From an uncultured Muribaculaceae bacterium (lineage in GTDB: Bacteria; Bacteroidota; Bacteroidia; Bacteroidales; Muribaculaceae): a stretch of DNA of 64,000 bases. Location of the stretch: contig CANNVE010000005.1 in assembly GCA_947525975.1 (NCBI GenBank), forward strand, positions 1-64,000, read 5' to 3'. Both the position numbers and the translations under genes were made by a program. A model generated the notes under the pieces. The model had not been told where the DNA came from, did not search any database, and worked only from the letters and a program-made list of their open reading frames with translations. Positions 13,960-34,521 of this stretch are shown in pieces; position 1 is the stretch's first letter, and every line of letters begins with the position of its first letter.

Positions 13960-15483
13960 ATGCAAGAAAAAATCATCATTCTCGACTTCGGTTCGCAGAC
14001 CACACAGCTCATCGGACGCCGCGTGCGTGAGCTCAACATGTACTGCGAGATCGTGCCGTACAACAAATTTCCCTACGACGACCCTTCGGTCATAGGCGTG
14101 ATTCTTTCCGGCAGCCCCTTCTCTGTGTATGACGAAAAGTCATTCAAACTGTCGCTCGAAGGCATCCGCGGCAAGTATCCGCTGCTCGGCATCTGCTATG
14201 GAGCACAGCTGATGGCATACGACAACGGAGGCACCGTAGAGCCAGCCGGCAGCCGGGAATATGGGCGCGCGCACCTGTCGGTGATTGACCGCACCGATCC
14301 GCTCTTCGACGGCATTGAGCCCGGAGCGCAGGTGTGGATGAGCCATGGCGACACCATCACATCTCTTCCCGAAGGCTTCAAGGTGATTGCTTCGACCGAC
14401 AAGGTGAAGTGTGCGGCTTATCGCGCCGAGGGCGAGCAGCTCTGGGGCGTGCAGTTCCATCCCGAGGTGTTCCACAGCGAGTGCGGCACGCGCTTGCTGA
14501 GCAATTTCGTGGTCGGCATCTGCGGCGGCAAGCAGGATTGGAGCGCTGCGTCGTTCATCGAGTCGACAGTGGCTGAGCTCCGCGAGCAGCTTGGCGACGA
14601 CAAGGTGGTGCTTGGCCTCAGCGGCGGAGTTGACTCGTCGGTGGCCGCTGTGCTTCTCAACCGCGCCATCGGCAGCAACCTCACCTGCATATTCGTTGAC
14701 CACGGCATGCTGCGCAAGAATGAGTTTGAGAATGTGCTCAATGACTATAAGTGCCTCGGCCTGAACGTGATCGGGGTCGACGCTTCAGAAAAGTTCTTCA
14801 GCGAGCTGGTCGGCGTCACCGATCCGGAAAAGAAACGCAAGATCATTGGCAAGGGCTTCATCGACGTGTTTGACGCCGAGGCCCACAAGATCAAGGATGT
14901 GAAGTGGCTGGCGCAGGGCACCATATATCCTGACTGCATAGAGTCTCTGTCGATTACAGGCACCACCATCAAGAGCCACCACAATGTGGGCGGCCTCCCC
15001 GAGAAGATGAATCTCAAGCTTTGTGAGCCTCTGCGCCTGCTCTTCAAGGATGAGGTGCGCGCCGTGGGCCGTGAGCTCGGCATGCCCGACCATCTGATCA
15101 AGCGCCATCCGTTCCCCGGTCCCGGCCTTGCTGTGCGCATCCTCGGCGACATCACCCGCGAGAAAGTGCGCATACTTCAGGATGCCGACGATATCTTCAT
15201 ACAGGGCCTCCGCGACAGCGGCCTGTATGACAAGGTTTGGCAGGCCGGCGTGATATTGCTGCCCGTGCAGAGCGTGGGTGTGATGGGCGATGAGCGCACC
15301 TATGAGCGCGCCGTGGCTCTCCGCGCTGTCACCAGCACCGATGCCATGACCGCCGACTGGGCCCATCTCCCCTACGAATTCCTCGCCAAGGTGTCAACCG
15401 ACATCATCAACAAGGTGAAGGGAGTGAACCGTGTATGCTACGACATCTCCTCAAAGCCGCCATCGACCATCGAGTGGGAGTGA
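13960..15483 (+). CDS. guaA: GMP synthase (glutamine-hydrolysing)
   Basis: 507 residues with both domains. The class I amidotransferase has the nucleophile in [12 protein letters not shown] (Cys79) and the His-Glu pair in [11 protein letters not shown]. The ATP-pyrophosphatase P-loop is [11 protein letters not shown] (about 222-232). The C-terminal dimerisation domain ends in KPPSTIEWE, the usual GuaA terminus. It converts XMP to GMP. The last codons and stop codon form attL of an integrated element: the same 15 bp recur at 31160-31174, so insertion left the coding sequence intact but separated it from its downstream DNA. Confidence 0.97.
15469..15483 (+). other. attL (guaA 3' end)
   Basis: Left copy of the 15-bp core; includes the last four guaA codons and the TGA stop. 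Confidence 0.85.
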
Positions 15484-15678: not shown

Positions 15679-16542
15679 TTACTGATTCTTTTGCTGACCC
15701 CGACACATCGCTAACCATTTGAAGAACTTCTGTCCGATGGGATTGTCAGGCTCTGCTGCGTACTTCTTCTCAAAATACCTTATCTTCGGTTTGCCGACAG
15801 CATCGCATCTGCGGAAGGTATTTTCTTTGACTTCCTCACTTGGGGCTGTAGCAATTAGACAATCAACCTCACTGCATAACATCATCCAGTCTTGCCATGA
15901 TGTAACTTTGCTTATCCGCGCCATCAGTGCATCTTCCTTCTGCTTGTATTTAGCCATTGCAGGTGAGTGGAATTCCCTCGGTCTGGTTGAAATTCTCTCA
16001 TGCGCCCCTGCAGAGAGTATATTATCTATATTCTCTTTATTATCTGCATTCTCTATATTGTCCTCACTTTGGGGAAGTGGCCGTGGAGATTTAGGGTTTG
16101 TTGTAGCTGATTTATAAATATAAGATGGCTTCCATCCAGTTGCTCTATACTGGTCAGTAATTATGGCATAGTCGGGATTCTTAATGCAATCCTCAATGCT
16201 ATACTTCTCCCATTGGAGCATTGCTGTTTCGTTAACCTTAAACCGATTGGGGGATTGATTCTTGGATTTACTATCCAACCGAACATCAACAACACCTTCG
16301 CGGAAGAGTGTGCTGATTGTGGCTCTTACTAAATTCTCACTTAGTCGGCTCTGGGCTTGAAGGTCAGCATTACTACGAAAAAACCAACCATCCCATTCTT
16401 TATTTTCAGCCCTACAACGATTCTCATAGTATGATGATAATTGCAGAAGTGTGAAGAGCATACTTCGGCAATTATTATCTAAGCAACACATCAAATTTAC
16501 TGGCATAGCCGTAAACTGATATTTTAGTTCTGACTTCTTCAT
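15679..16542 (-). CDS. Winged-helix replication-type protein of the element
   Basis: 287 residues. The N-terminal 110 residues look like a replication-organiser wHTH domain (NADLQAQSRLSENLVRATIS, then LFREGVVDVRL), as in phage and plasmid replisome-organiser proteins. The middle is low complexity (SEDNIENADNKENIDNI), and the C-terminus is basic and helical. It could start replication or load a helicase; no direct catalytic motif is visible. Its ATG overlaps the integrase stop codon (ATGA at 16539-16542), so it is the last gene of the resolvase-integrase operon. Confidence 0.6.
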   Translation of the reverse strand: MKKSELKYQFTAMPVNLMCCLDNNCRSMLFTLLQLSSYYENRCRAENKEWDGWFFRSNADLQAQSRLSENLVRATISTLFREGVVDVRLDSKSKNQSPNRFKVNETAMLQWEKYSIEDCIKNPDYAIITDQYRATGWKPSYIYKSATTNPKSPRPLPQSEDNIENADNKENIDNILSAGAHERISTRPREFHSPAMAKYKQKEDALMARISKVTSWQDWMMLCSEVDCLIATAPSEEVKENTFRRCDAVGKPKIRYFEKKYAAEPDNPIGQKFFKWLAMCRGQQKNQ

Positions 16543-17867
16543 ACGGCTCTACTATTACCCGTGAAAAACTCTTGAGACCGTTCCGCATACTCCTCTTTTT
16601 CAATTTTGATGTACTTCAAGAAGTTGGCTTCCGATGTGTGACCAGTCATACTCATTATCGCCAATGTCGGCATTTTCTTACGATATAGATTTGTGGCGAA
16701 TGAACGTCTTGCTGTGTGAAATCCTATGCACTGGTATTTGAGGTACTTCTTTTGCACAGTTTCTCCCTTTACGGTTTGCGTCTGCTGAACTACATCATTT
16801 AGCCCAGCAAGTCTGCCCAATTCTTTAAGATGTGAATTAGATTTACTCTTATCCACCAATCGAGGAAACTGCCCATTATACTTCGCATACAATTCACGAA
16901 CATAAGGATGGAGGGGTATCATCACCATCGCTTTTGTTTTCTGAGTCTGTATTGAGAGTGTGTTCTTGTTGAAGTCGAATATCGCTTCATTGATTCTGTT
17001 CAAGTCCGCACGTCTCAGTCCAGTCCAACATCCAATTACAAATAGGTCTCGTGAGACCTCCATAGTAGATTTAGAGTCAATCAACCCTTCTCTCATTAAC
17101 TGGGGTATATCGAGATTATACAGTGCTGTTATCTCTTCTTCGGTCAGAGAGATTTTATCCTCGGTAAATTCCTTGGTGGGCAATGCCTTGTAAAAATCGG
17201 TCTTTAACAAGCCCTCCTTCGTGGCAGCATTCAACCGTAATTTCAAGATTGAGAATGTTGCCCCCACCGAATTACGGCTATAACCATGCCCTGGACGTGC
17301 GACATGATATGCCCAGTTGGTGAAACGAGTTTCAAACGACTCATTAAACATATCAAAACTGTCAGAAGTATGGGTTGCTTTCATATAAGCCATAAGGCGT
17401 TTAAGAATCACCTTATGATGGCCCTGCGTTCTAACACTGATGTTTTGCGACGTGCCTTTGCGTGTCATTGTCGGGATTCGCTCAATGTATTCCTGGAAGA
17501 ATTGAAGTGGTGTACGATTTGCCTTAGCTTCATCTACCTCTATTTTCTGCTTAGATGTTCTGACAGCATCTTTGAATATGGGATTGATGTCAAAGTCAAG
17601 TTTCATAGAACCGACAAGCGCAAAACTGCCGAGACGTGACCAACGGTCTTCTATTTCGTTGAGTTGTTTGTTTATCTTCTTCAATTCGCGCTTGAATCGG
17701 ACTGTTCCTTCTGCATCCTTATTACAACGCTGTGTAGATTTATCCCAAACTGAAGTCGGGATTGTGATGCCAGTAGATTTCTTTATTTGTTGTCCTCCAC
17801 CTCTGACAATCGCCATGATAAGTGAGCGTTCACGGTTGGGGTATTGTAAATTGAAACGTATCTTCAT
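16539..17867 (-). CDS. Tyrosine recombinase/integrase of the guaA element
   Basis: 442 residues. The N-terminal arm-binding and SAM-like core domains span roughly 1-235. The catalytic domain has Arg285 (WTGLRRADL), a Lys near 312, HTARR (His384, Arg387), His410 (MTGHTS) and Tyr419 (NFLKY), a complete R-K-H-R-H-Y set. This size and the layout are typical of Bacteroidetes integrases of the CTn/phage type. Being the only tyrosine recombinase near attL, it is the probable integrase for the guaA site. Its ATG overlaps the serine recombinase stop codon. Confidence 0.93.
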   Translation of the reverse strand: MKIRFNLQYPNRERSLIMAIVRGGGQQIKKSTGITIPTSVWDKSTQRCNKDAEGTVRFKRELKKINKQLNEIEDRWSRLGSFALVGSMKLDFDINPIFKDAVRTSKQKIEVDEAKANRTPLQFFQEYIERIPTMTRKGTSQNISVRTQGHHKVILKRLMAYMKATHTSDSFDMFNESFETRFTNWAYHVARPGHGYSRNSVGATFSILKLRLNAATKEGLLKTDFYKALPTKEFTEDKISLTEEEITALYNLDIPQLMREGLIDSKSTMEVSRDLFVIGCWTGLRRADLNRINEAIFDFNKNTLSIQTQKTKAMVMIPLHPYVRELYAKYNGQFPRLVDKSKSNSHLKELGRLAGLNDVVQQTQTVKGETVQKKYLKYQCIGFHTARRSFATNLYRKKMPTLAIMSMTGHTSEANFLKYIKIEKEEYAERSQEFFTGNSRAV

Positions 17868-18511
17868 ACTGCTTCTTTTTTATTGTTGATGATTGCTGCA
17901 ACCTTGCGGATTGTAGTCACGCTGGTGCCAGTTATTTTTGAAATGTTGCGGAGACTGTAGCCGCGTTTGAGAAGTCTTAGTTCCTCGGCATACTCCTCTT
18001 TGTAGGCTTCTATTGGTTTGTTATAACCGTCCTTACGACCTACTTTACCTCCGTTAGCCCGATAGTTACTGTAACCGCTTTGCATACGGCTTCGGATGAG
18101 GTTTCTCTCCATTGCGTTAAACTGGGCGAGGATGCCGAGGACGAGGGTCGCTATGGGATTGACCTTCCCATCGGGGAGCATAGTCTCCAATCCATTTTGC
18201 AGTATGTAGAGTGAAATGCCGTGCTCAGTGAAAGTCTCTACCAGTTGGAGGAAGTCCACGGCTCGACGTGAAAGACGGCTGCATTCGTAGATGAGGATTT
18301 TATCAACCTTATGGCTACTGGTGTAGTCAAGAAGCTCAGTCATAGCTTGACGCTCTGCAACCCGCTTTGCTCCGCTTATCTTCTCGCTAAACTCTTTGAC
18401 TACCTCAAAGCCATTCTGAGAGGCATAGGCGCGGAGGTCATGAAGTTGGCGGTCATAGTCTTGGCTGCTTGTCGAAACACGAGCGTAGATAACAACCTTG
18501 GTCTTTTCCAT
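17864..18511 (-). CDS. Serine recombinase, resolvase/invertase family
   Basis: 215 residues from ATG 18511 (MEKTKVVIYARVS); a longer reading from 18580 overlaps the upstream gene. The catalytic domain shows YARVSTSSQDYDRQ (Ser13 nucleophile), CSRLSRRAVDFL and AQFNAMERNLIRSRM. The C-terminal HTH is LKRGYSLRNISKITGTSVTTIRKV. It is small-resolvase sized, not a large serine integrase. It could resolve multimers of the element or invert a segment. It is translationally coupled to the tyrosine integrase (ATGA at 17864-17867). Confidence 0.92.
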   Translation of the reverse strand: MEKTKVVIYARVSTSSQDYDRQLHDLRAYASQNGFEVVKEFSEKISGAKRVAERQAMTELLDYTSSHKVDKILIYECSRLSRRAVDFLQLVETFTEHGISLYILQNGLETMLPDGKVNPIATLVLGILAQFNAMERNLIRSRMQSGYSNYRANGGKVGRKDGYNKPIEAYKEEYAEELRLLKRGYSLRNISKITGTSVTTIRKVAAIINNKKEAV

Positions 18512-18521
18512 ATCCGTAAGG

Positions 18522-18830
18522 TTAAGCGGTGAAACCATAATCAGACTTAACTCGCTCCTCATAGTCATCGGTACGCTCAACTAATCCGTCAATGACGTTG
18601 ACCAGTTCATCGAAATACACATCCTCGACTTTCTTACCAGTCTTTTTAAGGATAACTGTAAAAGTGTCAAGTCCTTCCTCATACACGACCTCTACCCAAC
18701 CTTTGTACTTATAGCCCTGCACCTTGAAGGCAAGACCTCGGTCATTAGATAGACGAGTCGGAGAGTTGAAGCCCCATGACCACATTATCATTAACTGAGA
18801 GCGGAGGATGCTGAGAATGTATTCTGCCAT
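18522..18830 (-). CDS. Small conserved-type hypothetical protein of the element
   Basis: 102 residues, unknown function. It begins MAEYILSILRSQLMIMWSWG and has a mixed alpha-beta pattern with no membrane segment or catalytic motif. It is the first gene of the left-arm operon, 10 bp ahead of the resolvase, and is read from the promoter at 18863-18894. The position before recombination genes suggests a recombination-directionality or regulatory role, but this is only inference. Confidence 0.7.
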   Translation of the reverse strand: MAEYILSILRSQLMIMWSWGFNSPTRLSNDRGLAFKVQGYKYKGWVEVVYEEGLDTFTVILKKTGKKVEDVYFDELVNVIDGLVERTDDYEERVKSDYGFTA

Positions 18831-18981: not shown

Positions 18982-19290
18982 ATGGCAAAAGAACTATCTC
19001 AACGAGTCAAAGAACTCTGCTCAGAGCGAGGCATACAGTTGAAAGACCTTGCTGAGCGAATGAGTGTCAAGCCCGAATCATTGAGCAGGGCAATCAACGG
19101 CAACCCACATCTCTCAACCTTGGAGAACATAGCCAACGCCCTCAAAGTTGGAGTAGCCGAGTTATTAAACAGTGGGCGGTCTCACGAACCTCTGACCTCT
19201 GATTTTACGGCCATGGTAGTTAATTACGGTAAAACGTATCTGTTTCATACCAAAAGAGATTTATTCAGATGGTTAGATGAGAAGTGTTAG
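18982..19290 (+). CDS. XRE-family transcriptional regulator of the element
   Basis: 102 residues. The N-terminal 60 residues are a Cro/C1-type HTH (KELCSERGIQLKDLAERMSV, then KPESLSRAINGNPHLSTLENI). The C-terminal 40 residues are short and aromatic, without a peptidase motif. It is divergent from the recombinase operon, with two CTAAAGTTAA repeats in the shared region, so it likely represses recombination genes and itself. Confidence 0.88.
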   Translation: MAKELSQRVKELCSERGIQLKDLAERMSVKPESLSRAINGNPHLSTLENIANALKVGVAELLNSGRSHEPLTSDFTAMVVNYGKTYLFHTKRDLFRWLDEKC

Positions 19291-19957: not shown

Positions 19958-20878
19958 CTATTTCAGATACCGAAACTTAAACGCAGCCCATTTGGGGTTA
20001 ATTTGAGAGTATATGCGTTGCTTTCTCGCTTCCATTGGTGAGAGTGCCACTCCATTATTCTTCTTGCTCTGAACTGGTGGCGTTAATTGTACCTCTTTGG
20101 TGTATGTCGTTATAGGAAGACTAAGGAACACTGAGAATGCTTCCAAAACACTTTTTATGCTCCTCGCCTTGTTGCGCTCTATCAGAGGACACTCCATGAA
20201 GAATCTATATAGGATGATAGTGCGTTTATGAGCATCTTCTTCTTGTTCAAGATTCCATTCAGAGGATAGAAGTCTCAGTTTAGATTTCAGTATTCGTAGA
20301 TTGTCAGCATCATTTACTTTTAGCATATTCCCCAGTGCCAAGTCTATATCATTTGAATTGACAATCATTTTCAGTTGCATCTCAATATAGGTGTCGCGGT
20401 TAATAGTCACCCTCCAAACTTTCAACACCCTATTAACCATCTCTACATTGGGTTTCTTATCTATAACATACAAGATGGCTTTGGCTACCTGCTCCTTGGT
20501 ATAAAGCGGTCGTATCTCGTTCAAATATGCAAGAGCCAATTCTCGCTCATCCCCATATTCTCGTATTGGGTATATCACAGCACCAGTACGAAGTAAACTG
20601 ATTGCTTCATCAGAAAGTATCTCGTTCTTATTGAAAACGTTCTCAACGTAATAATCTCCCCATTCAGTAATCTCATATTCCCAACCATAGTCATAGCCGA
20701 CCTCCTCGCGTATCTCATCTTTGCGTTGTTCGATTATATCATAATACGATTTCTCAAACTCCTCAGAGGTCATGTAGATATACACATACTTCACCTTATT
20801 ATATACTGGGTGCAAATACTCTAATCGCACTGTATAACGAAGTTGCGGATGGGGACATGTGTCGATATTCAGAGGCAT
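19958..20878 (-). CDS. Hypothetical protein of the element
   Basis: 306 residues, no known family recognised. The N-terminal third is rich in Tyr/Trp/Glu (YDYGWEYEITEWGDYYVENV); the rest is helical, with a Lys/Arg-rich C-terminus. No signal peptide or membrane segment. It lies 12 bp downstream of the methyltransferase-like gene on the same strand, so both are probably one transcript. Confidence 0.65.
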   Translation of the reverse strand: MPLNIDTCPHPQLRYTVRLEYLHPVYNKVKYVYIYMTSEEFEKSYYDIIEQRKDEIREEVGYDYGWEYEITEWGDYYVENVFNKNEILSDEAISLLRTGAVIYPIREYGDERELALAYLNEIRPLYTKEQVAKAILYVIDKKPNVEMVNRVLKVWRVTINRDTYIEMQLKMIVNSNDIDLALGNMLKVNDADNLRILKSKLRLLSSEWNLEQEEDAHKRTIILYRFFMECPLIERNKARSIKSVLEAFSVFLSLPITTYTKEVQLTPPVQSKKNNGVALSPMEARKQRIYSQINPKWAAFKFRYLK

Positions 20879-20890
20879 GGCAATACAGAT

Positions 20891-21802
20891 TTATGGTTTA
20901 CGAAAGACCAAGAAATAAGAGTGCATCTTTCGGGCGCAGCGTTGGCGATATGACTGTTTTAATAGCTTTGTTTTCGCTATCAAGAGAAACTGGTCTAATA
21001 ACTCAAAACCGAGCTTGCGAGCCTCTTCGATAACATAAAGTGCTACCCATTCCTGCTTGCCCTTATACCAATAATCTTGCGTCTTCATTACCAGTACGCC
21101 ATTGGCGGTTAACAGTCTGTATACCAATGAGAGCATTGCAGAATTTGTTCTGTACAACTCCTCATTACTACTGAAATGGCTGAACCGTTTCTGCATCATG
21201 CTTCGCACCTCCTTACTATCTACATACTCGTCCACAATGAAGGGCAAATCTATGACTATTGATTTGAAGGAGTTGTCTGGTAACAACTCCGCGTCTTCCA
21301 GTTGTCGGACGGTTTCATCTACGGGATATTTATCGTAACAATACGTTGGGCGTGGGATTCCGTACTTATAAAACACTCCCTCAGATGTCGTAAGGTCACA
21401 GTCAAAAGTGGGAGCATTGTTACAATAGAGCCTCAGAATTCCCGATAGAATTGCGGTTTGGTCTTTGTCAACGGTCTTTATGGGAGCTGATAACTTTGAT
21501 AGATTGACTTTACTGATTTTGTCGGTGGTAGGTTTAGCAGGTGGAGCCTCCATCGCCATATACTTTTTGGCAGTATTGAGGGACATTCCCAGTGCTTTTG
21601 CAACTTCACTGGGTTTTGCCTCCTTGTGAGTTTGGAGGTATAAGCGCACCGCATTATATTTCTTAACCTGCTCGTCATAGCGACGGTCAATTCCCTGCTC
21701 AGAGATGTATTTGCGTATAGCAGCATCGGTCACACCGCAACGCTCGGCATTTTCATGGATGCTGAGGGAGGGGTTGTAGTTGATTCTTGACTTCTGCGGC
21801 AT
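20891..21802 (-). CDS. HTH plus SAM-dependent DNA methyltransferase-like protein
   Basis: 303 residues from ATG 21802 (MPQKSRINYNPS); the open frame runs to 22144 but the extension covers non-coding DNA. Residues 1-85 hold two HTH-like stretches (NAERCGVTDAAIRKYI and KPSEVAKALGMSLNTAKKYM). The rest resembles phage and element adenine-methylase-like proteins: SIVIDLPFIV takes the place of the DPPF/Y motif IV, and LTANGVLVMKTQD follows as the strand after the core. The D-L-P-F variant leaves activity in doubt. A TATCTTTG -7 box is visible upstream on the minus strand. Confidence 0.6.
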   Translation of the reverse strand: MPQKSRINYNPSLSIHENAERCGVTDAAIRKYISEQGIDRRYDEQVKKYNAVRLYLQTHKEAKPSEVAKALGMSLNTAKKYMAMEAPPAKPTTDKISKVNLSKLSAPIKTVDKDQTAILSGILRLYCNNAPTFDCDLTTSEGVFYKYGIPRPTYCYDKYPVDETVRQLEDAELLPDNSFKSIVIDLPFIVDEYVDSKEVRSMMQKRFSHFSSNEELYRTNSAMLSLVYRLLTANGVLVMKTQDYWYKGKQEWVALYVIEEARKLGFELLDQFLLIAKTKLLKQSYRQRCARKMHSYFLVFRKP

Positions 21803-22221
21803 AGTAGCAATTATTGTGACTACAAAGATAATAATTTTTGACTGAATATTGGGCTTGCGCATTGATAGTTCAGAAAAATTCGTTAAATTTGCATCGTTAT
21901 TGGTGTAGTGGCTTTTGTCGCTTGCCTTTGACAGACATATTAGGAAAGTGTTTGGCTTTTCTTGACGATGCAAATCACCACCTTTGCCAATCGGAGTCAG
22001 GAACTGCGTAACGCTCTCCCCATGGTTGCATATTACGACTATCGGTCGATAATATACGCTGTGGGTGAGTTGCATCGCGTATAATATCGACTCCGTGGCT
22101 TGTGGTGAGCCTGCATCGTAGATAAAATGCCGATTGCAGCTCACTCTTTTTTATATGTCTCAACTCAATATCAATCACAGAACCGCCCCATCTGAGCCGC
22201 ACTGGAGCACTGCTATTCTTC
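21803..22221. other. 420-bp non-coding divergent region with a hairpin
   Basis: This separates the HTH-methylase gene from the SPFH cargo operon. It contains a 14-bp inverted repeat with one mismatch (22046-22059 TCGATAATATACGC, 22077-22090) and repeated GTTGCAT-like words. No credible ORF. It could hold the cargo promoter, a regulatory RNA or a transfer/replication origin. Confidence 0.45.
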
Positions 22222-22959
22222 ATGGAAATGCGAGACAGCGATGTTACAATCAACCTCTTAGCTTCACTAAGGTCGGTTTTTGATGATTGCGTTGAGAAAC
22301 AAAGGTCTCAACCGAAATATAATTGGCATATTTCTGTGAAAGAGCCAGTCGAGGATTTTGATGAATTTTCGCAATGGTTCTTCTTTACGGAAGAGGGACG
22401 TGTGTTGACAAATAGGCCAAATCTCGGTATTGGGTTTAAGTTTGATGATGAACAGAACAACCGCTTTCTGCAACTCGGCATAAGCAATGAGTTTAAGAGT
22501 GATAAAGATGCGGTTGACGATTGCTATGCTTACTTTGCGGAGTGTGGCGATAACGCAGAAAAGGCATCCCAACTGGTGTATGAAGTTTTAACCCATGTAT
22601 ACCAGTTAGCCGATTTCCCTACTTTCACCAATCAAAAATTGGGAAATGAGCGAGATAAGAAAAGCCTCAAAGGGTATTGTATTGACCACCTCCCTATGAG
22701 GTTCTGTTTTGACCTGCCAAGCAACACGGATATGTCCAAAATAAGGCAGAAATTTGAGAAAACCGCCGCTTGCATGGAGAAATACGGATTTGGACAAGTT
22801 GAGTTTGACCAATCAAAAAGATGTGTCAAGGGTTATTATCAGCCAACTGAAGAACCTAAAGGATTCTTTGCAAGTGTAAAACATGGAGGCCAACTTGGAG
22901 ACACCGAAGCTGAGCTGATAGGTCTTTTAGACCTTTGTTATCAATCATTCAAACAATAA
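22222..22959 (+). CDS. Hypothetical protein, first gene of the SPFH cargo operon
   Basis: 245 residues, not recognised. Soluble, with aromatic-rich N-terminal part (WHISVKEPVEDFDEFSQWFF) and a mixed fold; no signal peptide, no cysteine clusters. It ends 6 bp before the SPFH gene, so translation is likely linked. Since it is always worth asking whether it is part of the cargo, its tight spacing and same strand support membership. Confidence 0.7.
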   Translation: MEMRDSDVTINLLASLRSVFDDCVEKQRSQPKYNWHISVKEPVEDFDEFSQWFFFTEEGRVLTNRPNLGIGFKFDDEQNNRFLQLGISNEFKSDKDAVDDCYAYFAECGDNAEKASQLVYEVLTHVYQLADFPTFTNQKLGNERDKKSLKGYCIDHLPMRFCFDLPSNTDMSKIRQKFEKTAACMEKYGFGQVEFDQSKRCVKGYYQPTEEPKGFFASVKHGGQLGDTEAELIGLLDLCYQSFKQ

Positions 22960-22965
22960 CATTAT

Positions 22966-24060
22966 ATGGCATTAGCGGAAGTCATAAAATGGGAAGTCAG
23001 CACTAAGGAGTTGACTCACAAATTTCAGTCAGAAGACCTCAAATTAGGGTCGCAACTGGTGGTGTATCCTGCGCAGACAGCCTTCTTTGTGAAAGGAGGT
23101 CAGATACTTGACGAGTTTATCTGTGGCACATACACAATCAAGACAGAGAACATCCCACTGCTGAACAAACTGGTCAATTTGCCTTTCGGAGGGGAGTCTC
23201 CATTCCAAGCCGAAGTCTGGTTCGTAAATCAGATTTCCGTACTGGATTGTAAGTGGGGAACACCTTCGCCCATACAGATAGAAGACCCAAAATATGGTGT
23301 AATTGTGCCTATCCGTTCTTTCGGACAATACGGTTTCAAAATCTCCAACCCTCGCGTCTTTCTTGAGAGACTTATCGGTAATATGTCAACATTCTCGACC
23401 GAGAAACTGACAGATTATTTTCGTGGTGTGATATTATCTAAACTGACTAAAATCATATCAGAAAAGCTATATGCCGAGCAGTTATCTGTAATCAACATAA
23501 ACACCCACGTTGAAGAGATTTCAGAGTATGCCAAGGAGAAACTGTCAGAGGTGTTTGCGGAATATGGAGTCTGTCTTGAGATGTTTACGGCTATCGCTAT
23601 AAATGTCAACGAAGATGACCCAAGTTTCAAACGGCTTAAAGAGACCAAAGATGCGCTGGCGCGAATAAACATCATGGGAAAAGAAAACTATCAGATGGAG
23701 CGCAGTTTCAATGTACTTGACAGTGCAGCCGAGAATGAGGGTGGAGTTGTTGGCACAGCCGTAGGTTTAGGCGCAGGTGTTGGTGTTGGTGCGCAGATTG
23801 GAAATATGGTCAAGGATAACCTCAATACAAATCCCTCAACACCACCTCCACTTACCTCGCCACAATATTTCCTTGGGATAAATGGTCAACAGCAGGGGCC
23901 GTTTGACTACGAAGCCGTAAAAACAGCCATTCAGTCGCATCAGATTGATGAGTCTGTATTGGTTTGGAAACGAGGAATGTCTAACTGGTGTCCGATAGGT
24001 GATATTTCAGATTTCTCCGAGATTTTCAACAATTGTCCTCCACCTCTTCCACCCATGTAA
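22966..24060 (+). CDS. SPFH-domain protein (YdjI-like) with C-terminal GYF_2 domain
   Basis: 364 residues. The N-terminal 225 residues match the YdjI/virion-core-like SPFH family: MALAEVIKWE start, QLVVYPAQTAFFVKGGQI, GTYTIKTENIPLLNKL, CKWGTPSPIQ. Bacillus YdjI has a zinc ribbon at the C-terminus; here a GYF_2-type domain (about 300-360, FLGINGQQQGPFDYEAV then WKRGMSNWCPIGDI) takes its place after a Gly/Val-rich linker that may be membrane-associated. SPFH proteins scaffold membrane microdomains. The neighbours are a four-helix protein and two zinc-ribbon proteins, like the YdjGHI membrane complex. Family placement is firm; role is inferred. Confidence 0.85.
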   Translation: MALAEVIKWEVSTKELTHKFQSEDLKLGSQLVVYPAQTAFFVKGGQILDEFICGTYTIKTENIPLLNKLVNLPFGGESPFQAEVWFVNQISVLDCKWGTPSPIQIEDPKYGVIVPIRSFGQYGFKISNPRVFLERLIGNMSTFSTEKLTDYFRGVILSKLTKIISEKLYAEQLSVININTHVEEISEYAKEKLSEVFAEYGVCLEMFTAIAINVNEDDPSFKRLKETKDALARINIMGKENYQMERSFNVLDSAAENEGGVVGTAVGLGAGVGVGAQIGNMVKDNLNTNPSTPPPLTSPQYFLGINGQQQGPFDYEAVKTAIQSHQIDESVLVWKRGMSNWCPIGDISDFSEIFNNCPPPLPPM

Positions 24061-24063
24061 GCC

Positions 24064-24408
24064 ATGAAACAGACCATTATCACACTCGGAATAATACTGT
24101 GCGTCCTTAATCTCCTCGTGGGATTGATATTATCAGCATACGGATGGCAAAATGTAGTTTGCTCAACTATGGCAGTTATAGTAACTACGGCCTTCTCCTT
24201 AATGGGAATCTCTACTTCAATAAAGGATGGCTTCAAACTGGGGTTGCTGTTGTTATTCTCCGTAGTTGGACTGATTCAGTTCCTACTTGCTGCCCTTATG
24301 CCCAGCACTTTCACCGACAACTGGTGCTTGATAGCCATACTCGTCCTATTAGTTGTTGAAATTGCCATCTTTATAATTACCAAAAAAGTATCTACCGCAA
24401 TAAAATAG
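24064..24408 (+). CDS. Small four-helix membrane protein of the SPFH operon
   Basis: 114 residues, about four transmembrane segments (IITLGIILCVLNLLVGLIL, CSTMAVIVTTAFSLMGI, LGLLLLFSVVGLIQFLLAAL, LIAILVLLVVEIAIFII). No catalytic motif. It starts 3 bp after the SPFH stop codon and ends 6 bp before the next gene. It may take the place of YdjH as membrane partner, but there is no sequence proof. Confidence 0.75.
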   Translation: MKQTIITLGIILCVLNLLVGLILSAYGWQNVVCSTMAVIVTTAFSLMGISTSIKDGFKLGLLLLFSVVGLIQFLLAALMPSTFTDNWCLIAILVLLVVEIAIFIITKKVSTAIK

Positions 24409-24414
24409 CCCCTA

Positions 24415-25191
24415 ATGGAAACAATAAAATGTTCAAAATGTGGATGTGAGATGTCGGTAATGTCTGAGGCATGTCCATTGTGTGGCACTCCAACAAGAAT
24501 AGTCAAGTCAATAGCCGTTGAGCAACCCAAGTCTACAAAAGCTGAAAAAGTCACAAGACCAAATATCAACAACCAAACAAGGGTTAAAACACTTGAAGAG
24601 GCTTTGATTATGGCAATGAACTATGTCAAGGTGACACCAGACACCATATTGTATGTCAAGCCGAGGGAGGGCGGAGAGTTTTCATCTTTCCTTGAAATGA
24701 ATAATTTCCTTTGGGTCGGAGATATGATGATTTGCAATCATCCGAAGATAAACTTCGACCATTGCGATTTAGAAACATCGGTAGAATACCTGAACTCGGA
24801 GGAAGATTGCAAGAAATTTGCAGAGGACTTTTCATCATTCTGTAAGGCAAACGGCTTCAATACCAATGATTATACCTATTGTTTCGATGCTGTACTGGTC
24901 TATGACTGTATGTCTGGTCCAAATCTTGCGCTTGAAGTAGAGACAGAGTTGTATGTAAAAGAGGGCATTGCTGAAATAGACTCACAGATTGATGCCTTCA
25001 ATGCCAAAACATTATCCGTTGGTCTTTCAACGTTGTCGTATAAAGGCTCACAACCCTCAATTACTGGTATGATTAAATTTTCTGCTGCCAAGGGTATGTT
25101 CAAGAAAGGGGCTGAAAAGAAAGTTCGCTCAGAGTTAATAAAAAATTTGAGTGACCTCGTGTGTGAAATCGCCGAAAAATATCAGATATGA
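24415..25191 (+). CDS. Zinc-ribbon protein of the SPFH operon
   Basis: 258 residues. The N-terminus is a zinc ribbon (CSKCGCEM...CPLCG, four Cys). The remainder is a soluble alpha-beta domain of unknown family with no membrane segment. Its stop codon overlaps the ATG of the next gene (ATGA, 25188-25191), so the two zinc-ribbon proteins are probably made in fixed ratio. Confidence 0.75.
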   Translation: METIKCSKCGCEMSVMSEACPLCGTPTRIVKSIAVEQPKSTKAEKVTRPNINNQTRVKTLEEALIMAMNYVKVTPDTILYVKPREGGEFSSFLEMNNFLWVGDMMICNHPKINFDHCDLETSVEYLNSEEDCKKFAEDFSSFCKANGFNTNDYTYCFDAVLVYDCMSGPNLALEVETELYVKEGIAEIDSQIDAFNAKTLSVGLSTLSYKGSQPSITGMIKFSAAKGMFKKGAEKKVRSELIKNLSDLVCEIAEKYQI

Positions 25192-26978
25192 GTACCAATA
25201 CTTGTCCCAACTGCGGAGCGCAAACAAATAAGCCCATTTGTGAATATTGTGGTTCTGTCGTAACTCCCCCACAAACGCCCAAGAGGCACAAGAATGACAT
25301 TGAGGCTATCTATGTGCTTCCTTGGCCGAAAAAATTACAGACTGATGATGATATAATCGTTAAATGTCTCACGCATATCAGAAATATGAAAGATGCGCCA
25401 TTGGATGTGTTTGAACATATTACTGATGTGCAGGTTGCAAGGTATTATTTGCCGATGAGATATTTCAACGGTAATGTAACGACTGACTGGAATTGCATAC
25501 AAGTATTTGACCGCAAGCGAATCGTCGGATATGACTACGACCGCGATGGCAAAAAGAAACCAATCTATGAGAATTACGAGGAGTTTATTCCTGCAAGCGG
25601 TAAGGGAGCTGCCAATTTTAGTTTTGTTGTGCCTACTGTTAATGAGGTTGGTCTACCCAAGGCTCTTGTAGATTGTTTGGGAACAATGTCATTGGATAAA
25701 GACATTGTGGAAATGGCTCAGTCATTAGATGCCTCCCTAATTGTTGACGGTGCTACGATTATTGATGAAGGAGACAGAGCAATAGACAAGACTATCATGA
25801 GAGCAGCCGAAAAGTACATTGGCAATGTCGCACACCGAGCTTCTTTCAAAAATCTAAGTGGAAGGCTTCAAGACTGTAATTTCAGCTACACTTGGCGATA
25901 TGGCTCTGCCCAAAACAAAAGATTGCTTGTACCTGCCTCAACAGTTACTTACAAATATAAAGGAGAGCAATATACATACGCATTTATCTATAATGGGGAT
26001 GGGTTCAATGGTGATAGCAAAAAAGAATATCCCAAAGGGAAGGTTGAGATTTTGCAACAAGTTAAATCTCAATCTCGTAGCTACACAAAAACTGGTTGGT
26101 TGACCTTTATTATTTCGCTGCTATTGACAATTGGCACACCATTTATTTGGGGCAATGGGAACTCAACAGATGCTCACCCAATCCCTGTGATAGTGGCAGT
26201 TTTGATAGTGTTAGTTGTCGCGTGGAAATCACTTTCAATAAACATGATGTATGATAGACTGGAAAGAAATGTCGAGGTAATGTCATCAATCCTACGTACT
26301 TACAGCCTCAAAAGAGTTTTTCCTCAATATGCAAATAATACATTGGTTAATAAGGTAGCAAAAGAGGAATCAGAAACGCAATCAAAAATCGATGAGACAA
26401 ACAAAAACATCAAGAAGCAACGACGATATATAAAGCTACTCGTATTGGTTCAAGTACTGATAATAATTGGTGGTTTTGTTAATATGAACAGAATAGCAGA
26501 GAACAAAAGGGCTGCTTACAGAGCCGAACAAGAACGAATACTGGAACAAGAACGTCAAGAACAGCAACGACAAGCAGAAGAAAAACGTATTGAACAAGAA
26601 AAATATGCGGAAGAACAGCGACAACTGGAACCTACTAAAAAATGGATATTGTCACAATTAGTAGGCAAAACATATACAGGTGAATGTTGGATGAATAAGA
26701 ATGGTATTCGCATATCTTTTCTGAATGAGAATACATTGCAGTTTAGTACGACTCCAAAATTTCAGCACGAAAATAGTAAATGGTCTGACCCTATATCAAT
26801 ACCTTTCTCAATTGACATTAAGAAAGAATCATTAGGCGTTAGTTCATGGTATCGTGTTGTAATACGAAGTAGAGAATTCTATTCTGATGAAATAAACATA
26901 CATGACGATAAGTTTAATCCCTACGATTTGCGCATAAAATACAAAGATGAAAATTATACACTTTATCGTAAGGACTAA
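25188..26978 (+). CDS. Zinc-ribbon membrane protein, YdjG-like, with coiled coil
   Basis: 596 residues. Order: zinc ribbon (CPNCGAQTNKPICEYCG, 5-21); a large soluble region whose TYKYKGEQYTYAFIYNGDG stretch resembles the YkGk-Y-vnG pattern of TFIIB-ribbon membrane proteins such as YdjG; two hydrophobic helices (about 305-322 and 328-345); another helix (about 412-430); a Glu/Gln/Arg coiled coil (about 440-485); and a C-terminal beta domain. It is the last gene of the operon and is followed by a terminator. The function is probably membrane-complex assembly; nothing catalytic is visible. Confidence 0.75.
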   Translation: MSTNTCPNCGAQTNKPICEYCGSVVTPPQTPKRHKNDIEAIYVLPWPKKLQTDDDIIVKCLTHIRNMKDAPLDVFEHITDVQVARYYLPMRYFNGNVTTDWNCIQVFDRKRIVGYDYDRDGKKKPIYENYEEFIPASGKGAANFSFVVPTVNEVGLPKALVDCLGTMSLDKDIVEMAQSLDASLIVDGATIIDEGDRAIDKTIMRAAEKYIGNVAHRASFKNLSGRLQDCNFSYTWRYGSAQNKRLLVPASTVTYKYKGEQYTYAFIYNGDGFNGDSKKEYPKGKVEILQQVKSQSRSYTKTGWLTFIISLLLTIGTPFIWGNGNSTDAHPIPVIVAVLIVLVVAWKSLSINMMYDRLERNVEVMSSILRTYSLKRVFPQYANNTLVNKVAKEESETQSKIDETNKNIKKQRRYIKLLVLVQVLIIIGGFVNMNRIAENKRAAYRAEQERILEQERQEQQRQAEEKRIEQEKYAEEQRQLEPTKKWILSQLVGKTYTGECWMNKNGIRISFLNENTLQFSTTPKFQHENSKWSDPISIPFSIDIKKESLGVSSWYRVVIRSREFYSDEINIHDDKFNPYDLRIKYKDENYTLYRKD

Positions 26979-26984: not shown

Positions 26985-27010
26985 AGAGGAGGCTTCGGTC
27001 TCCTCTTTTG
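26985..27010 (+). terminator. Terminator of the SPFH cargo operon
   Basis: Stem AGAGGAG / CTCCTCT with an 8-nt loop, followed by TTTT. Confidence 0.8.
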
Positions 27011-27108: not shown

Positions 27109-27233
27109 GAAGAGGGAGAATCCCTTAGTGTCAAGAGTCAGCCTTTGGGCTGCACCAACCGAGACTCACATAACAGTCCACGGTGGTCGGAGTAATCCAG
27201 ACACGATAGTAGGTAACTATAAAATAAATCGTT
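27109..27233 (+). promoter_or_regulatory. Structured 5' leader of the NADAR gene
   Basis: About 125 nt with several short stems: AGGGA/TCCCT with GAA loop (27113-27125), GAGTC/GACTC (27135-27139, 27163-27167) enclosing CAGCC/GGCTG with TTTG loop, CCAC/GGTGG (27178-27186), and ATAGT/ACTAT just before the ATG. There is no uORF of note. It is more structured than ordinary leaders here; a ligand-binding or protein-binding RNA is possible. Confidence 0.45.
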
Positions 27234-27995
27234 ATGAGCAATCCCAATTACATCTCGACTTCATCTTCTGTGTCTGAACTCGTTGCGGCTCTTGGTCGTG
27301 AGGAGCGAATTGTTGCGTCTGAGGCTCCCGTTTGGTGCTTTAAGAAAGTGACCGATATTGTCGAGGGCGTTGAACTGAGACTTAGCAATATGGCAGGTGG
27401 CTATCCGTTTGTATTTGCTGGGGTCAACTGGCCGTCAAGTGAGCAACTTTATCTATGTGGCGAGTTTACAGACTCCACCATTCAGCAAGAACTACTCTCA
27501 CAGACAAGCGGTTATGCCGCCAAGCGTTTCATCAAAGCCAAGTATAAGACGTTGGTGCGAGCCGACTTCACTACATTCCGTTTGCAGTGGATGCTCTTTG
27601 TCGTATGGCAGAAATGCCTCGGCAATGAAGCCTTCAGAAAAAAGTTGCTATCACTTCCCGAAGGAATAATTCTCATTGAGGAGACCACTCTCGACACTGG
27701 TGGCACGGCTCAGATATGGGGCTGTAAGAATAGAGAGTTGATAGCCTACCGCAAGCAACTAACAGAGCGCATCAAGCGACACTCCAACAACCTAACCAAG
27801 AAGGCTCTCGACTTGCATATCAACGTTGAGACCAACAAAGTCCGCAACATCGGTACATTCATCGGTCAAAACAACATTGGCAAAATCCTTATGCTCTGCC
27901 GTCGCTGTCTTATTGAAGGCATTGAGCCGCCTATCGACCGCGCCCTGCTAAACACAGCCAACATTACCATATTAGGCAATTCTCTCACATTTTAA
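27234..27995 (+). CDS. NADAR-family protein (ADP-ribose-linked N-glycosidase fold)
   Basis: 253 residues. NADAR/YbiA-type motifs: GVNWPSSEQLYLCGEF (family WPSSEH), a Lys/Phe core, FRLQWMLFVVWQKCLGN, ILIEETTLDTGGTAQIWG and IGQNNIGKILMLCRRCL (family GxNxLGxxLMxxR). About 45 residues are inserted between the IWG block and the GQNNIG block. Known members remove ADP-ribose from guanine in DNA (antitoxin of DarT1) or process riboflavin intermediates. No DarT-like toxin is adjacent. Its TAA overlaps the next gene's ATG by one base. Confidence 0.8.
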   Translation: MSNPNYISTSSSVSELVAALGREERIVASEAPVWCFKKVTDIVEGVELRLSNMAGGYPFVFAGVNWPSSEQLYLCGEFTDSTIQQELLSQTSGYAAKRFIKAKYKTLVRADFTTFRLQWMLFVVWQKCLGNEAFRKKLLSLPEGIILIEETTLDTGGTAQIWGCKNRELIAYRKQLTERIKRHSNNLTKKALDLHINVETNKVRNIGTFIGQNNIGKILMLCRRCLIEGIEPPIDRALLNTANITILGNSLTF

Positions 27996-28464: not shown

Positions 28465-29640
28465 ATGGAATACATAGAAAACTATCTGTCTATACCAGTA
28501 ACAACGGAGACCGAATCTCACATCTCAAATTATCTACGTCACGCCCACTATCCCCATGCCGTTGACCAAAAGCGCATGAAGATATTAGTGTTCAATATGC
28601 CACACGTCAGAATGTGGACGTTTGTGAATAAGTTGGGTATATCCAAATGGGAATATCACACCTATCCGACACCACCCGAAGAATACGTCAACCTGTTTCG
28701 TTACATTGATTGGCATATAGGAGAGAATCTGCTCACCTACCGCTGGAATAATCTACGTAATGATGATGGGGTATTTTCGACAATGGAGGAGCGAGGAAGA
28801 CTCATGCACGATGCTTATAATTGCGATGGCTATAAAGCATGGCGATTGCGATATTATCTCAGCAAAGGGCTATATGGAAGAATCGCCGACTCGCCTCACA
28901 ACTTCATAGTATATATAGTATATAAGGAGACAGACAGAAGAATTGAATGTATTGAGCATAATCTCGCCCCTCGGCTCGCCCATGCAATCAAAGATTTGGA
29001 TATGCCATTCTACAAACAACCAGTAGAATTAGACTTTTATTTTGACAGTGACCGCTTTTATATAGGTTGGTTCATCGCAGACACAGACTTACTAAATCTC
29101 AGTGGCTCATGTAGAACTATATTAAAGCCTATAACGGAGAAAATGAATTCATATCTTGGGGAGTTGGGGCTAATCCGAAACACAAGACACACTGACGAGG
29201 TTGAGGCAAATTTCAAAAGTCAAATGTTAGGAGACTATCAAATGCCACGAATGGAGCAATCTAAAAATCCGTTCTTTCTCAACCATGTCATCATTCCATG
29301 GAAAAACAGAGTGGAGGAAATACCGCAAGAGGGCTATATTTCGTTTATTCACTTCATCGACTATCAGCGACAGCAGGTGTTGGTCTTTAATATGGACTAT
29401 CGACACTGCTGTGAATTACTGGAAGCCGACCACCCAATCAGCATCCGTTACTCCGAGGGTGAGCCACCTATATATTATCAAGACCTCTTCAATCGGGTAA
29501 AAGAACAGATGAGAGCCAATATGCCTCACCTCGATGATGAGCAAATTCGCAATCTCATGACATACGTCCATCATATCGGCATGAGCAACTATGTTACCCG
29601 AATGAAACTTTACAAAGGACTCCATCACCTCACCCTCTGA
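28465..29640 (+). CDS. Hypothetical protein, right arm of the element
   Basis: 391 residues, no family recognised. Aromatic- and His-rich, soluble, no signal peptide. Two similar segments, RMKILVFNMPHVRMWTFV near the start and QQVLVFNMDYRHCCELL near the end, share VFNM followed by basic and aromatic residues, suggesting an internal duplication. It lies 77 bp after the NADAR partner on the same strand. It shows no ADP-ribosyltransferase motif. Confidence 0.65.
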   Translation: MEYIENYLSIPVTTETESHISNYLRHAHYPHAVDQKRMKILVFNMPHVRMWTFVNKLGISKWEYHTYPTPPEEYVNLFRYIDWHIGENLLTYRWNNLRNDDGVFSTMEERGRLMHDAYNCDGYKAWRLRYYLSKGLYGRIADSPHNFIVYIVYKETDRRIECIEHNLAPRLAHAIKDLDMPFYKQPVELDFYFDSDRFYIGWFIADTDLLNLSGSCRTILKPITEKMNSYLGELGLIRNTRHTDEVEANFKSQMLGDYQMPRMEQSKNPFFLNHVIIPWKNRVEEIPQEGYISFIHFIDYQRQQVLVFNMDYRHCCELLEADHPISIRYSEGEPPIYYQDLFNRVKEQMRANMPHLDDEQIRNLMTYVHHIGMSNYVTRMKLYKGLHHLTL

Positions 29641-31159: not shown

Positions 31160-31174
31160 ATCGAGTGGGAGTGA
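31160..31174 (+). other. attR
   Basis: Right copy of ATCGAGTGGGAGTGA, the guaA 3' terminus duplicate. Sequence to its right is the presumed original DNA downstream of guaA. Confidence 0.85.
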
Positions 31175-31203
31175 CGATCTGACCGTAATTTTTCAACCAT
31201 AAT

Positions 31204-31252
31204 AAAAGCAGCCATTCATATTCCATAATAACGAATATGAATGGCTGCTTTT
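31204..31252. terminator. Perfect 20-bp stem terminator, probably the original guaA terminator
   Basis: Arms AAAAGCAGCCATTCATATTC and its exact complement, 9-nt loop, ending in TTTT. It lies 30 bp beyond attR, where a guaA terminator would be if the element were absent. Confidence 0.85.
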
Positions 31253-31284
31253 CTGCAGGCGCCGCATTTGGATAAGATTTTTGA

Positions 31285-31316
31285 TTTGGTTGTTATATAT
31301 AAAATCATTATCTTTG
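31285..31316 (+). promoter_or_regulatory. Promoter of the chimeric regulator gene
   Basis: TTTG (31285-31288), 20-bp spacer, TATCTTTG (31309-31316). Start predicted near 31323, which excludes the earlier ATG at 31281 and supports ATG 31338. Confidence 0.75.
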
Positions 31317-31337
31317 CTATCTATAATACATAGAGTC

Positions 31338-32333
31338 ATGCACTTGATATATGGCAACATACATAGACTGATCACTTTTTGCCTAAAGCATAAGGCGAAT
31401 AAGTTACATGCCTTTTGGTCAATTCTCGCCAACAGATTTAATGGGGAGAGCGATGTTGATATTCTCGTTAAATACAATTCCGATATTGACCACAACCACT
31501 ATGCGGATAAATTTACATCGAACAATAGCAAGATTGCGTCTTTGCGGTATGCGATGTTTGTTCCATTGGCATTGATGATTGCGGCTGTGGTGGCATCTTG
31601 CCATTCTTATTCATCTGCTAAACTGGCCATTGCCGAGGATTTGAACGAGGCCGTGCTTGCGTTGACAAAAGAGAATCGTGAATTATGGACCCGTCAGGAC
31701 ACCATAGCGGCATTGCGCCAGATGCACGAAACTACACACAAGCCACTCATATATCAGGCGTCGGATGTGAATTTCAGAAATTCCGCACTCAGAAATGAGG
31801 CCTATTTCTCACTCGCGTTGGTCGATGATAAAAATGAGGCCCCTAAAATACAAGGGGATAAGATAGCCTCTGATTCCATCATGCTTGTGCCCGAGCTCGC
31901 TGTTGACGGGCTTGCCATACAGGTGCAAGGATTTGCCGACTGCTCTATGGCATCGGTATTCGCGGCTTCTGACCAGACATTTCCAGGAGTGCTCTTTTCG
32001 CTGTCTCTTCTTTCTATGGCGAGTATGTTTTTGTGGAGAAGGAAAGAGGTAGGAATGCCTGAGGTTGGCGTTGCCCCGACAGGCTCGGCGGCTCATCTTC
32101 TCGATGGCATCAAGCTCACTCCAATGCAGCGGCAGTTTGCGCGGATGTTGATTGAGGCTCCCGGTATGAGAGTTGACAAAGCGAAACTATGCACAGCATT
32201 GTGGGGCGGTAAAAGCAATGCGGAGGAGTCGCTTTATACGCTTGTCAGGCGCACCAAGGCGGCTCTTGCCTCGGCAAATATCGAGATTGTATGCAATCGT
32301 GGTGATTCTTATGAAATGCGGTTAAATAATTGA
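31338..32333 (+). CDS. Membrane-anchored wHTH regulator fused to a nucleotidyltransferase remnant
   Basis: 331 residues from ATG 31338. Residues 1-60 resemble a MNT-type nucleotidyltransferase (ANKLHAFWSILANRFNGESD then VDILVKYN); the usual GS motif reads WS. Then follow a hydrophobic helix with a lipobox-like Cys (PLALMIAAVVASC), a periplasmic-type region, a second helix (FPGVLFSLSLLSMASMFLW) and a C-terminal OmpR/ToxR-type winged helix (LTPMQRQFARMLIEAPGMRV, ALWGGKSNAEESLYTLVRRT). The regulator proper may begin at MFVPLALM (31552). It is followed by an outer-membrane barrel gene with an 11-bp repeat array in between, its likely target. Confidence 0.75.
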   Translation: MHLIYGNIHRLITFCLKHKANKLHAFWSILANRFNGESDVDILVKYNSDIDHNHYADKFTSNNSKIASLRYAMFVPLALMIAAVVASCHSYSSAKLAIAEDLNEAVLALTKENRELWTRQDTIAALRQMHETTHKPLIYQASDVNFRNSALRNEAYFSLALVDDKNEAPKIQGDKIASDSIMLVPELAVDGLAIQVQGFADCSMASVFAASDQTFPGVLFSLSLLSMASMFLWRRKEVGMPEVGVAPTGSAAHLLDGIKLTPMQRQFARMLIEAPGMRVDKAKLCTALWGGKSNAEESLYTLVRRTKAALASANIEIVCNRGDSYEMRLNN

Positions 32334-32343
32334 TATTCTGCAT

Positions 32344-32387
32344 TGTCAGATAAATGTCAGGAAGATGCCGGGAAGATGTCAGACAAC
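32344..32387 (+). promoter_or_regulatory. Four 11-bp direct repeats upstream of the OM barrel gene
   Basis: TGTCAG at 32344, 32355 and 32377 with a degenerate TGCCGG at 32366, exactly 11 bp apart. Direct repeats at one helical turn are typical of OmpR/PhoB-type winged-helix binding. They end next to a TTTG (32389-32392). Confidence 0.65.
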
Positions 32388-32442
32388 TTTTGACGCTTGA
32401 TCGCGGTTTTTTCGCTTGCTTTGCGGAAAAAATCGCATCAGC

Positions 32443-34503: not shown

Positions 34504-34521
34504 CCATCAAATCTGATGGCA

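Follow-up and report, generated by a model that had tools for sequence, protein, structure and literature searches.

The 64,000-nucleotide stretch of DNA analyzed here (the window; forward strand of contig CANNVE010000005.1, assembly GCA_947525975.1, from an uncultured Muribaculaceae bacterium) contains an integrative element of 15.7 kb, at each end of which the same 15 bp from the 3' terminus of guaA are present, and five neighboring genes of this element, here called A to E, are its exchangeable cargo. Domain content, gene linkage, mobility and exchange of the cargo slot were observed directly, and the sequences indicate that the five genes are a real, mobile and modular membrane cassette of the SPFH/zinc-ribbon kind, whose function is inferred from this anatomy. 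Bacteria often possess SPFH proteins accompanied by zinc-ribbon partners, about which little is understood, and the finding ties this class of membrane proteins to mobile DNA.

The five open reading frames were confirmed at 22222..26978, all on the plus strand and with intergenic gaps of 6, 3, 6 and -4 bp, so that the tightly packed gene set of the original prediction was recovered at its coordinates (Table 1). Gene B carries the Pfam domains Band_7_1 (PF13421, 1.1e-47) and GYF_2 (PF14237, 1.4e-15). Its AlphaFold model, built from 12 sequences with a mean predicted local distance difference test score (pLDDT) of 61 and values below 50 at residues 22-89 and 257-296, matched in structure comparison stomatin (3bk6, 2.4e-5), flotillin, prohibitin and HflK/C structures as well as two GYF entries, GltJ (7z3c, 9.6e-4) and GIGYF2-TNRC6A (7rup, 9.8e-3). 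Sequence and structure match both place B in the SPFH superfamily (YdjI/Band_7_1 class) by its SPFH domain, and the fold anticipated for this member of the set is present in the model. The C-terminal zinc ribbon of YdjI is absent from B, which has GYF_2 in its place; this replacement had been claimed before and agrees with Pfam and with the ends of the homologs. The hydropathy script predicted no transmembrane (TM) segment in B and four in C, the supposed four-helix protein, for which no significant family was found in the Pfam and NCBIfam scans. The previously listed unknown 245-aa protein corresponds to gene A; it is present without a significant family match, and pieces of it resemble a 372-aa protein of locus L003 (2.3e-5; L and G numbers denote compared loci and genomes). 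Genes D and E each show a single CxxC...CxxC ribbon by eye; Pfam gave no match for D and a non-significant Zn_ribbon_3 match for E (0.043), and the matches of D in other loci span the ribbon part only. In E, TM segments were predicted by the script and a coiled-coil-like stretch was recognized by eye. Hence, the ribbons of D and E and the membrane and coiled-coil parts of E stood as described, while Pfam did not recognize the ribbons significantly. The model of E (pLDDT 40) was unusable, and no usable fold of a zinc-ribbon protein was obtained.

The mobility of the cassette follows from an integrase, att repeats and an empty site, all of which were found. The gene guaA (13960-15483) terminates in ATCGAGTGGGAGTGA, and integrase and resolvase sit just inside the left end of the element. 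In genome G204, the GuaA protein of which is 93% identical, the site is empty: about 130 bp after guaA comes the counterpart of window position 36578, a distance that amounts to about 21 kb in the window. A related element occupies its own guaA in G239 (locus L103), with the core at both ends. Together with other cargo in the same slot, the repeats and the empty site confirm the earlier view of the genes as mobile cargo. Mobilisable elements are known to insert into this part of guaA, its 3' end (PMC5704250). ATE-1, the Brucella IncP island and GIsul2 share with the present element the tyrosine recombinase and this target but differ in hosts and cargo, a likeness by description and not by sequence (PMC5704250). 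The gap of about 21 kb is larger than the att-bounded element, so the DNA between 31.2 and 36.6 kb (31175-36577), absent from G204 and lying outside the att-bounded element, is a second, separate insertion or a divergent segment.

Table 1. Features of the guaA-integrated element and its cargo, in window coordinates
Feature	Coordinates	Strand	Remarks
attL, 15-bp core ATCGAGTGGGAGTGA (last codons and stop of guaA)	15469..15483	+	exact repeat of 31160-31174
Tyrosine recombinase (integrase)	16539..17867	-	PF00589, 7.4e-12
Serine resolvase/invertase-type recombinase	17864..18580	-	PF00239, 5.6e-36
Helix-turn-helix (HTH) regulator, backbone	18982..19290	+	HTH_26, 9.6e-9; homologs in L102-L105
Backbone gene without assigned function	19958..20878	-	homologs in L101-L105
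Methyltransferase-like backbone gene, some elements only	20891..22144	-	weak N6_N4_Mtase and mad1/mad2 matches
Conserved structured RNA (leader or small RNA), left border of slot	21890..22163	+	folding z, alignment in 7 elements
Gene A	22222..22959	+	245 aa, no significant family (Pfam, NCBIfam scans)
Gene B	22966..24060	+	SPFH (Band_7_1) and GYF_2, proline-rich C-terminal tail
Gene C	24064..24408	+	114-aa protein with four predicted TM segments, usual partner of B
Gene D	24415..25191	+	zinc ribbon (CxxC pairs by eye) and further domain without family
Gene E	25188..26978	+	zinc ribbon, cytosolic domain, TM, coiled coil, C-terminal domain (ribbon and coiled coil by eye, TM predicted)
Terminator-like hairpin closing the cassette	26985..27006	+	from a consensus scan with 5 sites of this kind vs 4.2 expected
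SAM-I/IV riboswitch aptamer (predicted), right border of slot, backbone	27123..27236	+	RF01725, 52.6 bits vs threshold 41.1
NADAR-family protein, backbone	27234..27995	+	PF08719, 1.5e-8, barely above cut-off
Backbone gene without assigned function	28465..29640	+	homologs in L101-L105
attR, 15-bp core repeat	31160..31174	+	core also at right ends of L101-L104, 1-2 changes

The exchange of cargo became visible when the element was compared with L101-L105 and L078 from the same family, which were identified by six NADAR relatives of 78-83% identity, and with L003 from Alloprevotella; the backbone of L003, L078 and L101 is visible in part only. The shared backbone comprises integrase, resolvase, HTH regulator, the gene at 19958 and sometimes the methyltransferase on the left, and NADAR, a variable small gene and the gene at 28465 on the right. 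Between about 22200 and 27000 the cargo varies. The slot is filled by A to E in the window, by WG-like and zinc-ribbon genes, B, C, the 372-aa protein (A-like pieces plus ribbon) and E in L003, by a lipoprotein-like gene with zinc-ribbon-TM and WG-repeat proteins in L101 and L104, by zinc-ribbon-TM, zinc-ribbon-WG and exported genes in L103, by exported-looking proteins in L102 and L105, and by a decayed E without B in L078. These labels were assigned by eye except for the significant Pfam matches, namely WG repeats in two L101 proteins and ribbons above the cut-off in two scanned slot proteins (L101:11952-13163 and L103:9817-10548). Homologs of the methyltransferase-like gene at 20891-22144, the called start of which is probably too far upstream (the L101 homolog has 305 aa), occur in L101 and L003, and none was found in L102-L105. 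No relatives of B, NADAR, E or the methyltransferase were detected in the scanned viral contigs; phage records gave 8 weak matches to B, none spanning 80% of it, and among the 24 plasmid records matching B three span 80% at identities of 26.6-31.4%.

To what extent the cassette is conserved was evaluated with 22 window-type loci, i.e. those with top-scoring B (the window, L002-L012, L049-L054 and L064-L067), and 24 fetched loci with more distant B matches as chromosomal-type controls. The limit was set at a break in the B score near E 1e-95; L054, where B is split into two frames, was added and the weak match L013 left out. The next loci in rank, L068 (40% identity) and L055 (39%), have a long 4TM partner and were counted as controls after rank and partner had been seen, so the group boundary was drawn with the data in view. 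Gene C lies immediately downstream of B in 20 of the 22 window-type loci. A motif search located a zinc-ribbon gene no more than four genes away from B in 21 of the 22 window-type and 19 of the 24 chromosomal-type loci; such genes take 32 of at most 176 positions near window-type B and 3 of 269 among more distant genes of both groups, which supports the earlier claim of linked zinc-ribbon membrane proteins. The E family is found near B in two window-type loci, the window and L003, vs 11 of the 24 controls. Gene E has phmmer matches in L079 (5.6e-11) and L080 (2.8e-10) over residues 51-286/306, outside the ribbon, and with a window-side profile that includes L079-L081 it aligned to the zinc-ribbon protein that accompanies SPFH-GYF on chromosomes (hhalign 99.0%, 6.2e-18, 284 columns). 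The fullest parallel to the cassette is L003. Among the loci compared, A to E are not conserved as a five-gene set and only B and C recur together widely; the expected synteny thus holds for this pair, which does co-occur elsewhere, and not for the full set. Given the frequent B-C pair and the occurrence of E beside chromosomal SPFH-GYF genes, we regard B and C as the near-constant unit, E as an old partner, and A and D as local additions.

Relatives of B at E<=1e-10 occur in 42 and those of E at E<=1e-5 in 6 of 247 family genomes, the window's own genome being counted in both. The chromosomal sets of Bacteroidales (L084, L055, L068, L061) share the SPFH-GYF protein, a downstream 4TM protein (with coiled coil) and the zinc-ribbon partner, but their 4TM partner has 195-280 aa vs the 114 aa of C; homology between C and these longer partners was considered and found unsupported (hhalign 10.5%). 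The L084 record, whose SPFH-GYF set adjoins housekeeping genes, is filed as plasmid. Among the passages retrieved on SPFH proteins combined with GYF domains and zinc ribbons, none describes a cassette of this type. Genome G239 combines two of the loci: L103, a related guaA element that lacks SPFH, and, on a different contig, L053, an SPFH-GYF locus that lacks C.

Proline-rich peptides are the ligands of GYF domains. The C-terminus is proline-rich in 41 of 46 SPFH homologs, the figure used here; a wider tail pattern counts 42, one of them being the zinc-ribbon end of L063. Among the five tail-less homologs, the ends of which were judged by eye, L062 and L063 belong to the long SPFH class ending in zinc ribbons, L079 and L080 resemble neither type, and L053 has the GYF domain without the tail. 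Proline-rich linkers also exist in some neighbor proteins (L004, L050, L052). The binding property of GYF and the frequency of the tail together led us to propose assembly and client binding through the tail.

With moderate confidence we propose that the cassette encodes a membrane-anchored SPFH-GYF scaffold, which is held together by GYF-proline-tail contacts and recruits zinc-ribbon proteins as clients to protect the envelope. Ring-shaped oligomers are formed by SPFH proteins (PMC12624060), and B would oligomerize via its SPFH domain as known for its relatives. Without a TM segment of its own, B is probably tethered to the cytoplasmic membrane by the four-TM protein C, and E could serve as anchor, too. 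The GYF domain of B would bind proline-rich tails, either the PPPxP C-terminus of a neighboring subunit or proline-rich linkers of clients, by which the scaffold may close on itself and recruit clients. The clients would be zinc-ribbon proteins, here D and E, of which E is predicted to cross the membrane, its C-terminal domain being probably extracytoplasmic. Assembly, tethering and client recruitment thus conceived would have a protective output: the complex would probably stabilize the envelope or change its shape during stress or when a phage, toxin or competing element attacks, and by guarding the host would guard the element, too. The proposal is supported by SPFH and GYF assignments from sequence and fold, the position of C after B, the clustering of zinc-ribbon genes, the family link of E, the frequent tails, the exchange of the slot with other envelope-type cargo, and by the reported need of Bacillus YdjI for membrane partners (PMC8581546). 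That swappable cargo keeps two genes nearly constant while its zinc-ribbon clients change likewise suggests a scaffold role in conflict or envelope protection, a role made testable by cassette swaps. Several observations weigh against the proposal. C is missing from L053 and L067, A and D are without supported fold, the models are poor for B and unusable for E, and the GYF-tail contact is taken from general knowledge of GYF domains. Furthermore, SPFH-GYF genes also adjoin housekeeping genes, e.g. yidD and obgE in L084, which makes the protective role on the element a guess.

The original prediction had likened the cassette to YdjGHI; on this reading it would recruit a PspA/ESCRT-III-type protein to the membrane. 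In Bacillus subtilis, the soluble protein YdjI depends on two membrane proteins, YdjG and YdjH, for membrane localization and PspA recruitment (PMC8581546), and the pspA-ydjGHI operon shares with the cassette a soluble SPFH protein, membrane partners and a zinc-ribbon membrane protein (PMC8581546, PMC11237479, PMC9239133). In line with this idea, B is a YdjI-like SPFH protein accompanied by zinc-ribbon membrane proteins, and the PspC gene reported at 61120 is indeed there (PF04024, 5.7e-19). Gene E, a candidate counterpart of the zinc-ribbon/NTF2-like membrane protein YdjG, has a ribbon and predicted TM segments. However, PspA_IM30 (PF04012) gave 0 matches across the whole genome (completeness 99.9%) in a search that was positive in 9 of 14 control genomes, which extends the previously noted lack of PspA in the element, and no TPM domain typical of YdjH was matched in the five cassette proteins. 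Compared with the Bacillus system, B has GYF and proline tail and not a C-terminal zinc ribbon, the 114-aa four-TM protein C stands in for the TPM-domain protein YdjH, the cassette resides on an integrative element, and no PspA was detected in the genome. PspA recruitment as in Bacillus was therefore rejected and the YdjGHI-like reading is extremely unlikely; since no PspA was found, the scaffold proposed above would be PspA-independent.

A role in anti-phage defence, which had also been suggested, would mean that the membrane set senses phage entry and then blocks injection or kills the infected cell. The mobile element with its variable slot would fit, as would the adjoining NADAR gene, whose best NCBIfam match is the anti-phage NADAR model (NF053876, 2.6e-16, yet below the model cut-off), and a kinase-like and/or regulator gene cluster is located near B in 4 of 22 window-type loci (L002, L012, L050, L065) vs 0 of 24 controls. 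PADLOC, however, found nothing significant in the five proteins (one match, D at 0.19). It was also applied to neighbors of B (C excluded; per locus at most 7 proteins with a length of at least 120 aa), i.e. 133 of 134 chosen proteins from 21 window-type loci, without the window and without the incomplete L010:2-1090, and 141 of 155 from 21 control loci after L073 and L075 had been dropped for size. The window-type neighbors matched 75 families, the best 25 of which each match 3 proteins, mostly with kinase models, so that single-protein matches would not show and absence is not proven; the controls matched 17 families with at most 2 proteins each. The kinase models PD-T4-6/Stk2 match 3 of the 133 neighbors, presumably the kinases of the clusters mentioned, vs at most 2 of 141 controls for any family. 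This is no clear enrichment over the controls and no clear sign of defence islands, and the Pfam and NCBIfam scans revealed no defence enzyme in the scanned slot proteins of other elements (PADLOC was not applied there). Pfam detected 2 integrases and 2 resolvases among the 133 window-type neighbors, neither family being among the best 25, of 141, for the controls. The earlier defence suggestion gained no clear support, and we regard a dedicated defence function as unlikely. Equally doubtful is a housekeeping membrane-microdomain module picked up as passenger, for which the link to the element would have no special meaning. Of 393 genomes sampled from the order, 36 encode SPFH-GYF-like proteins (E<=1e-60, both types counted), and housekeeping families occur among chromosomal-type neighbors, which would agree with this reading. 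However, the window type is set apart by its B score and the C partner, and the slot of related elements repeatedly holds zinc-ribbon/TM or exported cargo. Entry or surface exclusion, by which the cassette would bar related elements or plasmids from the host, appears very unlikely: envelope-directed, swappable cargo does differ between otherwise related elements as exclusion types would, but there is no conjugation gene among the Pfam-scanned element proteins and no exclusion-protein family among the matches of the five cassette proteins.

The left border of the slot is formed by a rod-like RNA of about 270 nt with folding z of -7.93 in the window (21893-22160), -6.68 in L101 and -4.57 in L003. 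It is preceded at about 21884-21891 by TAAATTTG, found by eye, which we take to be promoter-like, and closes, also by eye, with a hairpin and a run of T; the consensus terminator scan did not list this hairpin, and Rfam gave no significant match. RNAalifold recovered a partial rod only (48 pairs, 12 with change on both sides), and the helix test was modest, with on average 7.6 pairs in own pairing vs 6.1 between different sequences; for L102 the pairing with other sequences even exceeds own pairing, and for L003 own pairing has no advantage. Searching with a profile of seven copies additionally revealed L133, L134 and L135 (which has two copies) at E 1.7e-12 or better, loci chosen because a DNA search with the window leader had matched part of them. 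The same profile has weak matches upstream of SPFH cassettes in L002 (3.9e-5), L010 (8.3e-4) and L012 (2.4e-3); a second profile lost L010 but matched L002 (4.1e-4), L012 (1.2e-3), L110 (2.4e-3; included because of its NADAR) and L050 (7.7e-3), its best reversed decoy being at 0.97. Unusually strong folding (z <= -3.5) of the 330 nt in front of the first gene of the cassette was seen in 11 of 20 loci of the window type, compared with 6 of 22 of the chromosomal type and 8 of 76 background genes (L054, L060 and L083 dropped as too short, the window not counted); window-type loci differ from background with p=1.7e-4 and from the chromosomal type with 0.019, the latter from background with 0.11. 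In L133-L135 the leader relatives precede zinc-ribbon or lipoprotein-like genes, and L135:7115-19001 (G153) holds two tandem leader copies and seven genes resembling zinc-ribbon cargo, by eye near regulator-like/kinase-like genes.

On the right border, the SAM-I/IV (SAM, S-adenosylmethionine) match is the only RF01725 match found in the genome. An above-threshold match lies upstream of NADAR in all eight related loci (window, L003, L078, L101-L105), and none was found in seven stretches with more distant NADARs (L106-L112). NADAR relatives occur in 1 of 295 genomes sampled from the order and in 15 of 297 from the family, both figures including the window's own genome. RF01725 is matched at E<=0.001 in 16 of 247 family genomes, 14 above the cut-off. 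Among 18 RF01725 places in the family, NADAR is downstream in 5, one family without name, judged by eye, in 7 and FGase (PF05013) in L116 and L124; the rest have ambiguous genes, and no methionine gene was noticed, the Pfam scan covering 6 of these proteins plus one of L003. A fixed partnership of NADAR with the SPFH cassette was rejected: NADAR stays while the cargo changes, and besides the window only L003 among the compared loci has both NADAR and B, L078 having NADAR without B. NADAR and DarT1-NADAR systems share the NADAR domain with this gene (PMC11543638, PMC11833690, PMC11125620). They differ in that no DarT family match was found among the scanned neighbors here, where the gene follows a predicted SAM-I/IV riboswitch. 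A literature search on SAM riboswitches with NADAR found no paper. It is conceivable, though quite unlikely, that the element family is an RNA-governed platform for swappable envelope modules plus a fixed NADAR gene induced when SAM falls, e.g. by phage destroying SAM, which would amount to joint membrane-and-metabolite surveillance against invaders, unlike known defence systems. The rod-like RNA would then head a slot taking SPFH-GYF scaffolds, zinc-ribbon/TM/WG-repeat proteins or lipoproteins. The slot RNA and the riboswitch-linked NADAR gene offer further testable switches.

Some neighboring genes also deserve mention. The nameless family adjoining SAM-I/IV matches in L114, L117-L120, L126 and L127 has, by eye, a motif like SDSRMFLAPV, and a relative, likewise recognized by eye, is found in L003 (18094-19200). 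Two related genes, L051:7184-7975 and L053:4822-5634, lie beside SPFH-GYF loci and are presumably the two of 133 window-type neighbors matching uracil-DNA-glycosylase (PF03167).

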